Of a stretch of 64,000 bases of DNA, positions 282-38,321 are shown one piece after another. The notes beneath the pieces are model-generated. The model saw nothing but the letters and a program-made list of their open reading frames with translations. It did not search any database and was not told where the DNA came from. The translations under genes and the position numbers were made by a program. Within the stretch, counting starts at the first letter, position 1. Each line of letters starts with the position of its first letter. The stretch is taken from contig CM034547.1 in assembly GCA_020055645.1 (NCBI GenBank), forward strand, positions 64,825,884 through 64,889,883, given 5' to 3'. The DNA is from Tomocerus qinae. Its lineage: Eukaryota > Arthropoda > Collembola > Entomobryomorpha > Tomoceridae.

Positions 282-290
282 CTAAATAAG
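282..290. repeat. Left 9-bp target-site duplication of E1
   Basis: CTAAATAAG directly abuts the GGTATCAGC end of E1. The same nine bases recur at 1034-1042. Confidence 0.92.
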
Positions 291-502
291 GGTATCAGCA
301 GATAATCTCCCGTACTAGAAAATCTCCCCTATTGGAAAATCTCCCCGTTGGACAATCTCCCTATTGGAAAATCTCCCCGTTAGACAATCTCCCTATTGGA
401 AAATCTCCCCGTTAAACAATCTCCCTATTAGAAAATCTCCCCGTTAGACCAGCTAATCTCCCCGGTATGAGAATTAAGGAGAAACGACAGAACGAAAATC
501 GA
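291..502 (+). repeat. E1 left arm: inverted repeat with 16-bp tandem units
   Basis: After the tip there are about ten units that start AATCTCCC. Two unit types alternate: AATCTCCC(C)TATTGGAA and AATCTCCCCGTTRGAC, giving a 32-bp higher-order period. The array ends with a longer unit containing CCAGCT, then a non-repeated stem of about 40 bp ending AACGAAAATCGA. The arm is the reverse complement of 822-1033 with only a handful of differences outside the tips. Confidence 0.93.
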
Positions 503-739
503 AACTATAAAACTTAGTAATTTGAGACATAGAGGTGGATCGGACATGGGAATGATGAGACTATGAGATTCCAATAATGTAATGGAAAACTGCACATTGT
601 TTACCTGTACTTGAAGTAAACTGTTTGTCCTTCTACTGTTTCAAAAATACTTACATCCAATTATTATTTGTATTTGCTATTAATAAATACCAAAACTAAT
701 GCACAAAAAGCAATATATTTGCTGCCCGCCCCAAATTGC

Positions 740-822
740 TAGTAAAGGAAGGAACTAGGATAAGAAAAAATGGTATAAACGAGATTGGTCACTACTATTA
801 ATTACTTGATAATAATATGTAT
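740..822 (+). repeat. Core module of E1, shared with E2 and E3
   Basis: The segment from TAGTAAAGGAA through GAGATTGGTCACTACTATTA to TTGATAATAATATGTA is repeated in E2 (about 11183-11263, same orientation) and in both arms of E3 (about 37715-37780 and, inverted, 38044-38130). It is single-copy within E1 and E2 but lies inside the inverted arms of E3. It is the longest sequence shared by the two array types. Confidence 0.85.
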
Positions 823-1033
823 CGATTTTCGTTCTGTCGTTTCTCTTTATTTCTCATAGCGGGGAGATTAGCTGGTCTAACGGGGAGATTTTCTAATAGG
901 GAGATTGTCTAACAGGGAGATTTTCCAATAGGGAGATTGTCTAACGGGGAGATTTTCCAATAGGGAGATTGTCCAACGGGGAGATTTTCCAATAGGGGAG
1001 ATTTTCTAGTACGGGAGATTTTCCGACGTATTC
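822..1033 (-). repeat. E1 right arm: inverted repeat with 16-bp tandem units
   Basis: This mirrors 291-502 unit for unit, reading GGGGAGATT-type heads on the + strand. The outer tip differs (GACGTATTC instead of the complement of GGTATCAGC). The near identity of the two arms implies either recent insertion or ongoing conversion between arms. Confidence 0.93.
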
Positions 1034-1042
1034 CTAAATAAG
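1034..1042. repeat. Right 9-bp target-site duplication of E1
   Basis: CTAAATAAG directly follows the GACGTATTC end of E1 and is identical to 282-290. Confidence 0.92.
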
Positions 1043-10728: not shown

Positions 10729-10940
10729 GAATACGTCGGAAAATCTCCCGTACTAGAAAATCTCCCCTATTGGAAAATCTCCCCGTTGGACAATCTCCCT
10801 ATTGGAAAATCTCCCCGTTAGACAATCTCCCTATTGGAAAATCTCCCCGTTAGACAATCTCCCTATTAGAAAATCTCCCCGTTAGACCAGCTAATCTCTC
10901 CGGTATGAGAAATAAGGAGAAACGACAGAACGAAAATCGA
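10729..10940 (+). repeat. E2 left arm with alternating 16-bp units
   Basis: It has the same unit order as the E1 arm (AATCTCCC heads with alternating TATTGGAA and GTTRGAC tails) but opens with the GAATACGTC tip. It ends at the same AACGAAAATCGA boundary. Confidence 0.9.
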
Positions 10941-11263
10941 AACTATAAAACTTAGTAATTTGAGACAGAGGTGGATCGGACATGGGAATGATGAGACTAT
11001 GAGATTCCAAAAATGTAATGGAAAACTGTACACTGTTTACCTGTACTTGAAGTAAACTGTTTGTCTATCTTGTTTCAAAAATACTTACATTCAATTATTA
11101 TTTGTATTTGCTATTAATAAATACAAAAACTGGTGCACAAAAAGCAATAAATGTTTGCTGTTATAGCCCCTGCCCCAAATTGTTAGTAAAGGAAGGAACT
11201 AGGATGAGGAAAAATGGTATAAACGAGATTGGTCACTACTATTAATTACTTAATAATAATGTA

Positions 11264-11475
11264 TCGATTTTCGTTCTGTCTTTTCTCCTTATTTCTCATA
11301 CCGGGGAGATTAGCTGGTCTAACGGGGAGATTTTCTAATAGGGAGATTGTCTAACGGGGAGATTTTCCAATAGGGAGATTGTCTAACGGGGAGATTTACC
11401 AATAGGGAGATTGTCCAACGGGGAGATTTTCCAATAGGAGAGATTTTCTAGCACGGGAGATTATCTGCTGATACT
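11264..11475 (-). repeat. E2 right arm with alternating 16-bp units
   Basis: Reverse complement of 10729-10940 apart from scattered substitutions and the outer tip, which is of the GGTATCAGC type. Confidence 0.9.
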
Positions 11476-18251: not shown

Positions 18252-18360
18252 ATGTAGCAAAGGTGATATACATTATTATTGGTATAGCGCAGTGCTTAAG
18301 AGTGTGCGAATTTAAAAGCTTGTTGGTGGTATGTGGGTGTGAAACTCTCTGAAACAATTC
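18252..18360 (+). repeat. SINE-like tRNA-derived sequence, copy a
   Basis: This 109-bp sequence is about 91% identical to copy b at 18607-18715. It contains TAGCGCAGTGC (18285-18295), which resembles a pol III box A. About 51 bases later it has GGTGTGAAACTC (18336-18347), close to the box B consensus GGTTCGANNCC. The order and spacing fit a tRNA-derived SINE head. No tail repeat or target duplication could be marked, so its ends are only the limits of similarity between the copies. Confidence 0.6.
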
Positions 18361-18606: not shown

Positions 18607-18715
18607 ATGTAGCAAATGTGGTATCCATTATTATTGTTATAGCGCAGTGCTTAAGAGTGTGCGAATGTAAACGTTTGTTGGTGGCATGTGGGTGTGAAAC
18701 TCTGTGAAACAATTT
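18607..18715 (+). repeat. SINE-like tRNA-derived sequence, copy b
   Basis: Direct repeat of copy a, 355 bp downstream with no indel and about ten substitutions. The box A-like and box B-like segments are kept. The pair could be a local tandem duplication or two separate insertions; the intervening 246 bp does not reappear after copy b, so no third unit is evident. Confidence 0.6.
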
Positions 18716-36700: not shown

Positions 36701-37529
36701 GCAAAGTTGATACAGTATATAATTGTATCTACACTATTGGTTTCCGGTCAAAGGAGAGTGGATTACTGTAACAGAAGGAGACAACAATTAAATTCTTACG
36801 GTAAATGAGCAAGTACCTATTAGTTCTTCAATTTAATTAAGTATAAACCCACGGACTATAAAATAGTATATCTATTCTTTGTAGCTACTATACATATAAT
36901 GCGAAACTAAACAGAAACGTCGTCTTTTTGTACACAATCTTATCGTAAAAAGCAGACATGACCACCGCTAGAGATATGCTACGATTTCTAAGGCACGTTG
37001 ATTTTTCATACGATACCTCACAACAGAAATTATAATGTCAATATTGATTTTAGCTACAGTATAGAAGACTTGTGTATGGTATTGCGATTTTCTTTCACAA
37101 GCATTTAGAGTTCAGAATAATATCTTTGCTATTTACTCATACCCCTAAATCAATTACTTCAATTTACAACTAGCCCACAGCAGAGCTGAATAGTGCTTTT
37201 ATTTACATTATCTTATCATTTGATTCATGAATATACGTGTATGTCTCATTTGTTCTACCTGGGCATAAAACATCCCTAATGCAATATAAGATGTTTGAAC
37301 CTTATGGAAATTAGATTTCATCGAAAATGTATTCAGTAGGAAAAGTTTTGTGATACATTTGATATTACTTCTATCAGCACTCCGTTCAAGTTTCTGATTC
37401 AGTTGTGTGCATAACATAAAAAAGCCATACCAAAGACCAGAAAGTCATATAACTGAGAAACTTCTTAATAAATTGAATAATGGTATCATTTCATTCTCGT
37501 ACTCATGTATGTAAAAAGTATTCACGGCC
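18716..37529. other. Intronic stretch between SINE-like pair and E3
   Basis: Mostly featureless AT-rich intron. Three open frames stand out slightly and are discussed as leads: a + strand frame at 22498-22926 with few stops and higher GC, an ATG-started + strand frame of 154 codons at 29682-30146, and a minus-strand frame at 34464-34685. None matches a family I know. Confidence 0.55.
37521..37529. repeat. Left 9-bp target-site duplication of E3
   Basis: TTCACGGCC adjoins the GAATACGTC tip and is identical to 38313-38321. Confidence 0.92.
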
Positions 37530-37800
37530 GAATACGTCCTAATACCCCCCGAGTTCGAATACCCCCCCTATTCGAATACCCCTCCGTCCTACTACTTCCC
37601 GGCACACTACCCCCCGGTTCGATTAGCCCCCCGTTCGACTACTTCCCCGTTACATTACCCCCCGCCCCGAAACGATAATAAATAATTGATTTTAATCGTC
37701 CACGATGCTATATAGTAAGGGAAAAATGGTAGAGACGAGATTGGTCACTACTGTTAATTATTTGATAATATTATTATGTATATGTAGTTATTAGTAATGC
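37530..37800 (+). repeat. E3 left arm: C-rich 16-bp units plus shared module
   Basis: About eight units of 15-18 bp run from the tip. Their heads are AATACCCCCC, TACTACTTCCC, TACCCCCC, TAGCCCCCC and TACTTCCCC, and their tails are CTATTCG, GTTCGAT, GTTCGAC and GTTACAT. A unique stem follows, including the module GAGATTGGTCACTACTGTTA (about 37737-37756), which is also found in the cores of E1 and E2. The arm pairs with 38024-38312. Confidence 0.88.
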
Positions 37801-38023
37801 ATTTAACTCTGGACAATTAACTAAATTGTGTTTTAAAACAGTAGATGCACAAACAGTTTGCTTTTGGTACAGGAGAATAGAACAAAAATTTCCGTTACAT
37901 TGGAATCCCACCCACTCAGTCTTAATTTGCAGTTGTTTAGTTTCCATTGTCGGTAGATACCGTTTCTTCTCCGTAAAGATTTTGTACATTTGTTAACGAA
38001 GTCTGCCCACTTGACCACTGTGA

Positions 38024-38312
38024 ACATTACTAATAACTGCAGATACATAATAATTATTATCAAGTAATTAATAGTAGTGACCAATCTCGTTTTTACCATT
38101 TTTCATTATCCTGGTTTTTCCTTTACTATATAGCATCGTAGACGATTAAAATCAATTATTTATAATCGTTTCGGGGAGGGGGGTAATGTAACGGGGAAGT
38201 AGTCTAGCGGGGGGCTAATCGAACCGGGGGGTAGTGTGCCGGGAAGTAGTAGGACGGAGGGGTATTCGAATAGGGGGGGGTATTCGAACTCGGGGGGTAT
38301 TAGGTTGATACC
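38024..38312 (-). repeat. E3 right arm: G-rich (on +) inverted copy
   Basis: Reverse complement of the left arm, slightly longer because of small indels. The + strand shows runs of four to eight G about every 16 bases between 38170 and 38300. The stem carries the second inverted copy of the GAGATTGGTCACTACT module at about 38070-38090. Confidence 0.88.
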
Positions 38313-38321
38313 TTCACGGCC
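38313..38321. repeat. Right 9-bp target-site duplication of E3
   Basis: TTCACGGCC follows the TTGATACC tip and is identical to 37521-37529. Confidence 0.92.

Follow-up and report, generated by a model that had tools for sequence, protein, structure and literature searches.

A young non-autonomous foldback-form transposon with asymmetric tips and an alternating 16-bp array

Introduction

FB of Drosophila has the foldback form with arrayed arms, like the element described here. Published foldback MULEs already combine asymmetric ends with arrays of 12-15-bp units (PMC3169594, PMC5225508), and the accessible parts of these reports give the closest parallels. Tm1 of Meloidogyne (Mutator/Foldback) has asymmetric 7-bp ends, units of about 14 bp, 1-9 of them per arm, target duplications of 8-10 bp and one known copy that codes for a transposase (PMC3169594). 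Muta1-Muta14 are found in Aedes aegypti (PMC5225508), and the Muta elements are placed in Phantom (PMC6446971). They leave 8- or 9-bp duplications and have long arms, hundreds of non-autonomous copies and subterminal units of 12 bp with 3-4-bp spacers, that is, a period near 16; the terminal motif of Muta1 is a 10-bp imperfect palindrome and its transposase is known and active (PMC5225508). Tetris of Drosophila is a foldback with arrayed arms, 8-10-bp duplications and no known transposase, and its arm repeats are 220 bp long (PMC4079207).

Here we analyse E1, an element in a stretch of 64,000 nucleotides from Tomocerus qinae (the whole of this stretch is called the window below). E1 follows the plan of Tm1 and Muta1, with duplications in the 8/9-bp range and arrayed arms. 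It resembles Muta in the period of its units, the long arms and the many non-autonomous copies, and Tetris in the foldback form, although its units are far shorter than those of Tetris. Unlike Tm1, E1 has ten units in both arms in 25 of 30 copies, and these units alternate, whereas no alternation is described in the accessible text on Tm1 (PMC3169594). A transposase is known for Tm1 and for Muta1, but none was found for E1, and the palindromic terminal motif of Muta1 has no counterpart in it. The earlier note took E1 for a possibly undescribed family. The letters of its ends and units differ from those given for Tm1, but its build is one that the published foldback MULEs already show. The parts of the open-access literature that were searched yielded no account of an array in which two types alternate strictly, which does not imply its absence from print.

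E1 is a fresh member of the foldback-form non-autonomous DNA transposons, a kind already known. Our analysis favours, with fair confidence, a young element that is most likely moved by a MULE, probably of the Phantom type (FLYWCH zinc finger plus MULE domain).

Results

Limits and build of E1

The features of E1 and its relatives in the window are collected in Table 1. The proposal of a multicopy foldback-type transposon with target duplications is borne out by the inverted arms, the flanks and the further copies in the genome, and the perfect 9-bp duplication proposed for E1 itself is present as exact CTAAATAAG on both sides. Inverted arms of 212 bp had been claimed; the arms are real, but they measure 205 nt, or 215 nt with the 10-nt tips. 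Long inverted arms of tandem subunits flank a spacer, which is the foldback form. Long inverted repeats (205-nt arms, 97%) are also a mark of Mutator, in common with other superfamilies. The 743 bp of E1 hold no ORF of 120 aa; short, non-coding and with many exact tip sites in the genome over both families, the element may in a loose sense count as a MITE.

Table 1. Positions of E1, E2 and E3 and of their parts in the window
Feature	Position	Strand	Remarks
E1	291..1033		743-bp inverted-repeat element between exact 9-bp duplications
Left target-site duplication CTAAATAAG	282..290		exact; identical 9 bp at 1034-1042
Right target-site duplication CTAAATAAG	1034..1042		read directly
End B of E1	291..303	+	tip GGTATCAGC followed by 4 nt; differs from a mirror image of end A
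End A of E1	1021..1033	-	tip GAATACGTC + 4 nt, read inwards from the right
Left inverted arm proper	301..505	+	205 nt; 97% complementary to 819-1023
Right inverted arm	819..1023	-	mirrored ten-unit array at 854-1020
Left ten-unit array	304..470	+	units of 17, 17 and from there on 16 bp, with CAGCT in unit 9 (arm split, TRF)
Spacer	506..818		313 bp; without ORF of 120 aa; 753-816 shared with the E3 family
E2, second E1-type copy	10729..11475	-	A end at 10729; outermost base of B end changed
E3	37530..38312	+	tips GAATACGTC / GGTATCAAC; non-alternating C-rich array, homologous to that of E1
E3 duplication TTCACGGCC	37521-37529 and 38313-38321		9 bp, exact

A tandem array of 32-bp dimers

Each unit of E1 consists of AATCTCCC and a tail, and each arm has ten units. 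A strict alternation of two types had been claimed for about ten 16-bp units per arm. It is found in units 2-9 of both arms, where TATTRGAA and GTTRRAC tails alternate strictly, but not in units 1 and 10, which belong to neither type. As one arm is a copy of the other, they do not count as two independent cases of alternation. TRF finds arrays of period 16 and of period 32 in both arms. With up to one mismatch, the window has 22 occurrences of GGGGAGATTTTC, 11 each in E1 and E2; 0.17 are expected, and none of 100 shuffles reaches this count.

The self-identity of the array is 80% at a lag of 32 bp and 66-70% at a lag of 16 bp; what is repeated in tandem is thus a dimer of 32 bp. Exceptions to the number of ten are L005, L016 and E2, with nine units in one arm, and L028 and L029, copies of 711 bp with eight units in the A arm, which form a subfamily that is 32 bp, or one dimer, shorter. 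The alternating array is best explained by tandem duplication of a 32-bp dimer whose two 16-bp units had diverged. Strict alternation is explained in this way, and no new principle is required. Since the array of E3 does not alternate, alternation is a trait of the array of E1 and not of the group.

Copies, target duplications and age

The source assembly (334 Mb, 115 contigs, 35% G+C) contains, as the earlier note expected, further copies of E1, which are young and lie at unrelated sites. They come from a DNA search in which the best 40 of 383 candidates were scored, with identity up to 100%; L001-L030 are the 30 best of these 40, a set that favours intact copies. Together with E2 they make 31 E1-type copies read, and 28 of these carry the anticipated duplications, exact and 8 or 9 bp long (the exceptions are L004, L025 and E2). 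All seven E3-type copies read (L080-L086) have an exact duplication as well, so that it is found in 35 of 38 copies overall. The lengths lie in the 8-10-bp range that characterizes Mutator. However, the length is not fixed at 9 bp: in a set of 35 copies, 8 bp (n=19) is commoner than 9 bp (n=14), with none found in two; outside this set L030 has 9 bp, L086 has 8 bp and E2 has none. When the 35 flank pairs were shuffled 2000 times, a match over 8-9 bp was seen in 1923 of 70,000 pairs, and about 1886 are expected from copies that meet their own partner flank. The duplications have no clear consensus.

Mean divergence within subfamilies is 0-0.8%, and identical pairs make up 1/28, 7/28, 11/45 and 1/1 of the pairs within them (grouping by length, gaps ignored; L024 and E2 ungrouped, L030 not aligned). 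The burst of E1 is therefore recent. In the flanks of 30 copies the only match to another fetched locus is one 104-bp piece, and no empty site was seen among the fetched loci. Swapped flanks were considered as the source of the missing duplications in L004, L025 and E2 and rejected, as none occurs among the 30 copies. E2 lies about 10 kb from E1 in opposite orientation and without a recognisable duplication.

E3 belongs to a sister family

E3 is akin to E1. The A tips are identical (9/9), the B tips differ in one of nine bases, and a 64-bp internal block is common to both. The A arm of E3 is built of a 13-nt tip and units of 17, 17 and 16, in the same order of lengths as in E1. Alignments of the arms score 96-101.5, which is reached by 0 of 300 shuffles (shuffle maximum 67-73.5), with 81/133 and 83/131 like bases (about 61-63%). 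E3 represents a related second family whose array is homologous to that of E1.

Twenty-eight E3-type pairs of tips were found among the matches listed, three of them longer than 1.1 kb (1300, 2099 and 5463 bp). Pair lengths in this family fall at 620-672 bp and 743-796 bp, which suggests at least two spacer forms. The 2099-bp pair (L086), which has an 8-bp duplication, contains no ORF of 80 aa. The 5.46-kb pair is probably a nested insertion, since positions 2-629 of the query are matched in one piece. In L087 (C2:32551900-32553100), a 1.2-kb piece without an ORF of 50 aa taken from a 3.2-kb E3-type copy, there is another two-type tandem array, in which roughly GACGGGGTCATTTACAAAT alternates with GACATCTATTTAAAAT.

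The facing tip pairs found are of the A-B type

Two 21-nt patterns, one per tip and each covering both families, find exact A tips at 90 sites of the genome (56 E1-type and 34 E3-type) and exact B tips at 111 sites; the 100 B matches listed of these 111 comprise 66 E1-type, 33 E3-type and one other. Both patterns read backwards, as a control, give 0 sites. Among the matches listed, the exact tips form 76 facing A-B pairs, and no facing pair of like tips (A-A or B-B) was seen within 6 kb. When up to three mismatches over 28 nt are allowed, 68 E1-type A-B pairs of 514-1084 bp appear among the matches listed, and over 268 listed tip positions no two like tips face each other within 5 kb. Unpaired are 14 of 90 exact A tips and 24 of the 100 B tips listed; at up to three mismatches these numbers are 26/94 for A and 32/100 for B (100 of 102 listed).

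Two B tips of the same orientation stand 0.8 kb apart (C4:7841274 and 7842108) with no listed A tip near; we read them as tandem or nested copies. Exactly three mismatches to the 28-nt A tip are found at 31 sites. Nineteen of them are on C1 below 73 Mb (8-73 Mb), each more than 10 kb from any listed B tip; these A-like sites probably belong to a further family. Listed exact E1/E3 tips on C1 number 9 below 85 Mb and 44 above it; the MULE places on this contig show the reverse, with 32 below and 9 above. C1 may be a fusion or contain part of a sex chromosome.

Search for an autonomous partner

Profile searches gave 59 places from 92 candidates for the MULE domain (PF10551), 19 places from 24 candidates for the IS1595/Merlin transposase (PF12762) and at least 133 places for FLYWCH (PF04500; best 150 of 270 candidates). 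Searches with proteins gave 99 places for L079 and at least 128 for L054 (best 126 of 582 candidates). Tips were searched exactly, with up to three mismatches and with one further tip type. The expected long relative with the tips of E1 and a Mutator-type gene did not emerge: in a comparison of 438 transposase-domain hits with the 268 listed tip positions no transposase was found between E1- or E3-type tips, and no hit lies less than 6.8 kb away on the inner side of a listed tip. The nearest inner-side hit, at 6.8 kb, is a FLYWCH place; the tip in question already pairs with another at a distance of 0.8 kb. The E3-type A tip C1:88107248, which is unpaired, has a weak MULE-like fragment with four stops 7.5 kb away, and a FLYWCH+MULE gene lies 8.4 kb from the A-like site C1:48585882.

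Duplications and tips were then scanned at the loci of 30 of the 59 MULE places and of all 19 PF12762 places. Exact duplications with matching tips were found at the MULE loci L051, L054, L058, L060, L061 and L079 and at the PF12762 loci L033, L034, L037, L038 and L043. These counts leave out L056, where the apparent duplication is a palindrome that continues the inverted repeat. Weaker rows were also dropped for L053, L059 and L068, and additional ones for L037 and L043. Because both groups leave 8- and 9-bp duplications in this genome, duplication length does not separate MULE from IS1595/Merlin.

The best parallel to E1 among the MULEs of this genome is L054. It has an 8-bp duplication TTTAGAAC, tips GGTTGGGGG / GGTATACGG, arms of about six 22-bp units each, a MULE domain (E 4.9e-12) and an adjoining FLYWCH place. 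The tips of L079, GAATCACCC / GGTAATGCC, start like A and B of E1; this locus contains pieces of a MULE gene, and by eye its first exon is FLYWCH-like. The PF04500 search (best 150 of 270 candidates) placed no FLYWCH at L051, L058 or L079. L051, L054, L058 and L079 share with E1 an 8/9-bp duplication, asymmetric tips and arm units. Unlike E1, they have units of 21-22 bp (irregular in L079) of other sequence, and their arms give no convincing alignment with those of E1. TRF finds 21-22-bp arrays at the MULE loci L050, L051, L053, L054, L056, L058 and L059, of which only L054, L056 and L059 have FLYWCH within 1.5 kb; MULE, FLYWCH and 22-bp arrays thus occur together at L056 and L059 too, the ends there being candidates.

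Which superfamily moves E1

A derivation from a Merlin-type element, with an IS1595-family transposase (PF12762) acting on a non-autonomous E1, is the strongest competitor of the MULE reading, and we consider it fairly unlikely. The 19 PF12762 places of the genome include elements with the same 8- or 9-bp duplications: L033, L034, L037 and L038 combine 8-bp duplications with asymmetric GG tips, and L043 has 9 bp. The arms of E1 score 29-64.5 against MULE arms and 39.5-60 against PF12762 arms; the best rank over 32 comparisons, 4 of 300 shuffles, is reached once by L033 (PF12762; its right arm against the B arm of E1) and once by L061 (MULE). Tip likeness was tried as a proof of superfamily and rejected. 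Over five bases it favours MULEs (6-8/10, against 5-6/10 for PF12762; best P 0.033 of eleven), but over nine bases L033/L034 tie with L079, the best MULE, at 10/18. Neither the tips nor the arrays of E1 match an autonomous element above chance.

What favours MULE over Merlin is the build and the presence of FLYWCH beside MULE. FLYWCH together with MULE marks the Phantom subclass, according to the accessible part of PMC3169594, and FLYWCH is found within 1.5 kb of 15 of the 59 MULE places, against 0 of the 19 PF12762 places (FLYWCH from the best 150 of 270 candidates). Inverted arrays of 13- or 8-bp units do flank the transposase at L036, L039 and L041, where the ends are candidates; however, TRF finds no array at the tips of L033, L034, L037, L038 and L043, the five PF12762 elements whose duplications are exact. 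Moreover, none of the 19 PF12762 places lies within 20 kb of the 268 listed tips, and none within 180 kb of a listed exact tip. We infer the Mutator/Phantom membership of E1 from its build, which alone links it to the MULEs of this genome.

In our estimate, membership of E1 in a different cut-and-paste superfamily, whether hAT, a P-like one such as Galileo or one so far unrecognised, is quite unlikely. The hAT duplication is fixed at 8 bp. The mixture of 8 and 9 bp observed here (19 and 14 of 35 copies) is as in Muta1 and speaks against such an assignment, although the foldback form arose more than once: Galileo is P-like (PMC3573991), and in the accessible part of PMC4079207 not all foldbacks are Mutator. 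An immobile E1, being a duplicated satellite or a palindromic segmental duplication, is hardly credible, since the likeness of its tandem units to satellites is outweighed by fixed ends, by duplications that are exact in 35 of the 38 copies that were read and by flanks of 30 copies that are unrelated save for the one 104-bp piece, which refute this origin.

Further features were noted at several PF12762 loci. L036 (C4:13622505) and L039 have an IS1595-type transposase between inverted arrays of the 13-bp unit TAATACAGGAGGT, embedded in a larger repeat that has arrays of 40-41 bp and, next to it, an ORF that is C2H2-like by eye; the whole looks like a multi-gene element. In L041 (C1:126448743) an IS1595-like gene stands between inverted arrays of the 8-bp unit GGGGTGCT. 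L043 (C1:41601257), an IS1595-type element of 2.73 kb, has the 9-bp duplication TAGATAACC and carries the same tip, GGTTGGATTGG, at either end; its inverted arms are very long, and there are 37-bp arrays inside it.

Discussion

Under the favoured MULE reading, and by what is known of MULE biology, we suggest the following course of transposition. A MULE transposase encoded elsewhere would attach to the units repeated in the arms, and one A end would be paired with one B end. Excision of the element would follow, and then its insertion into a target cut with a stagger of 8 or 9 bp. The geometry of the array invites speculation: with a period of 16 bp successive units might lie on opposite faces of the helix, and with a period of 32 bp, about three turns, like units might come to lie on one face.

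A more tentative proposal, possible but one on which we would not insist, concerns a code in the ends. The A (GAATACGTC) and B (GGTATCARC) tips would be non-interchangeable, with one of each needed, and would have stayed identical or almost identical in both families while the arrays drifted; the array would serve as a tunable docking platform and the tips as the code for synapsis and cleavage. That the tips are unchanged while the arrays drifted argues in favour of both ends being needed. Descent from one A-B master copy would yield this polarity equally well.

E1 is a very young and clean case of a foldback, with identical copies and intact duplications, and its interest is chiefly that of a clean test system for end polarity. 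With two sister families that share tips but have different arrays, the roles of tip and array are separable by experiment.

The window also contains a 108-nt direct repeat (18252-18359 and 18607-18714), the two copies of which are 92% alike and 355 bp apart.
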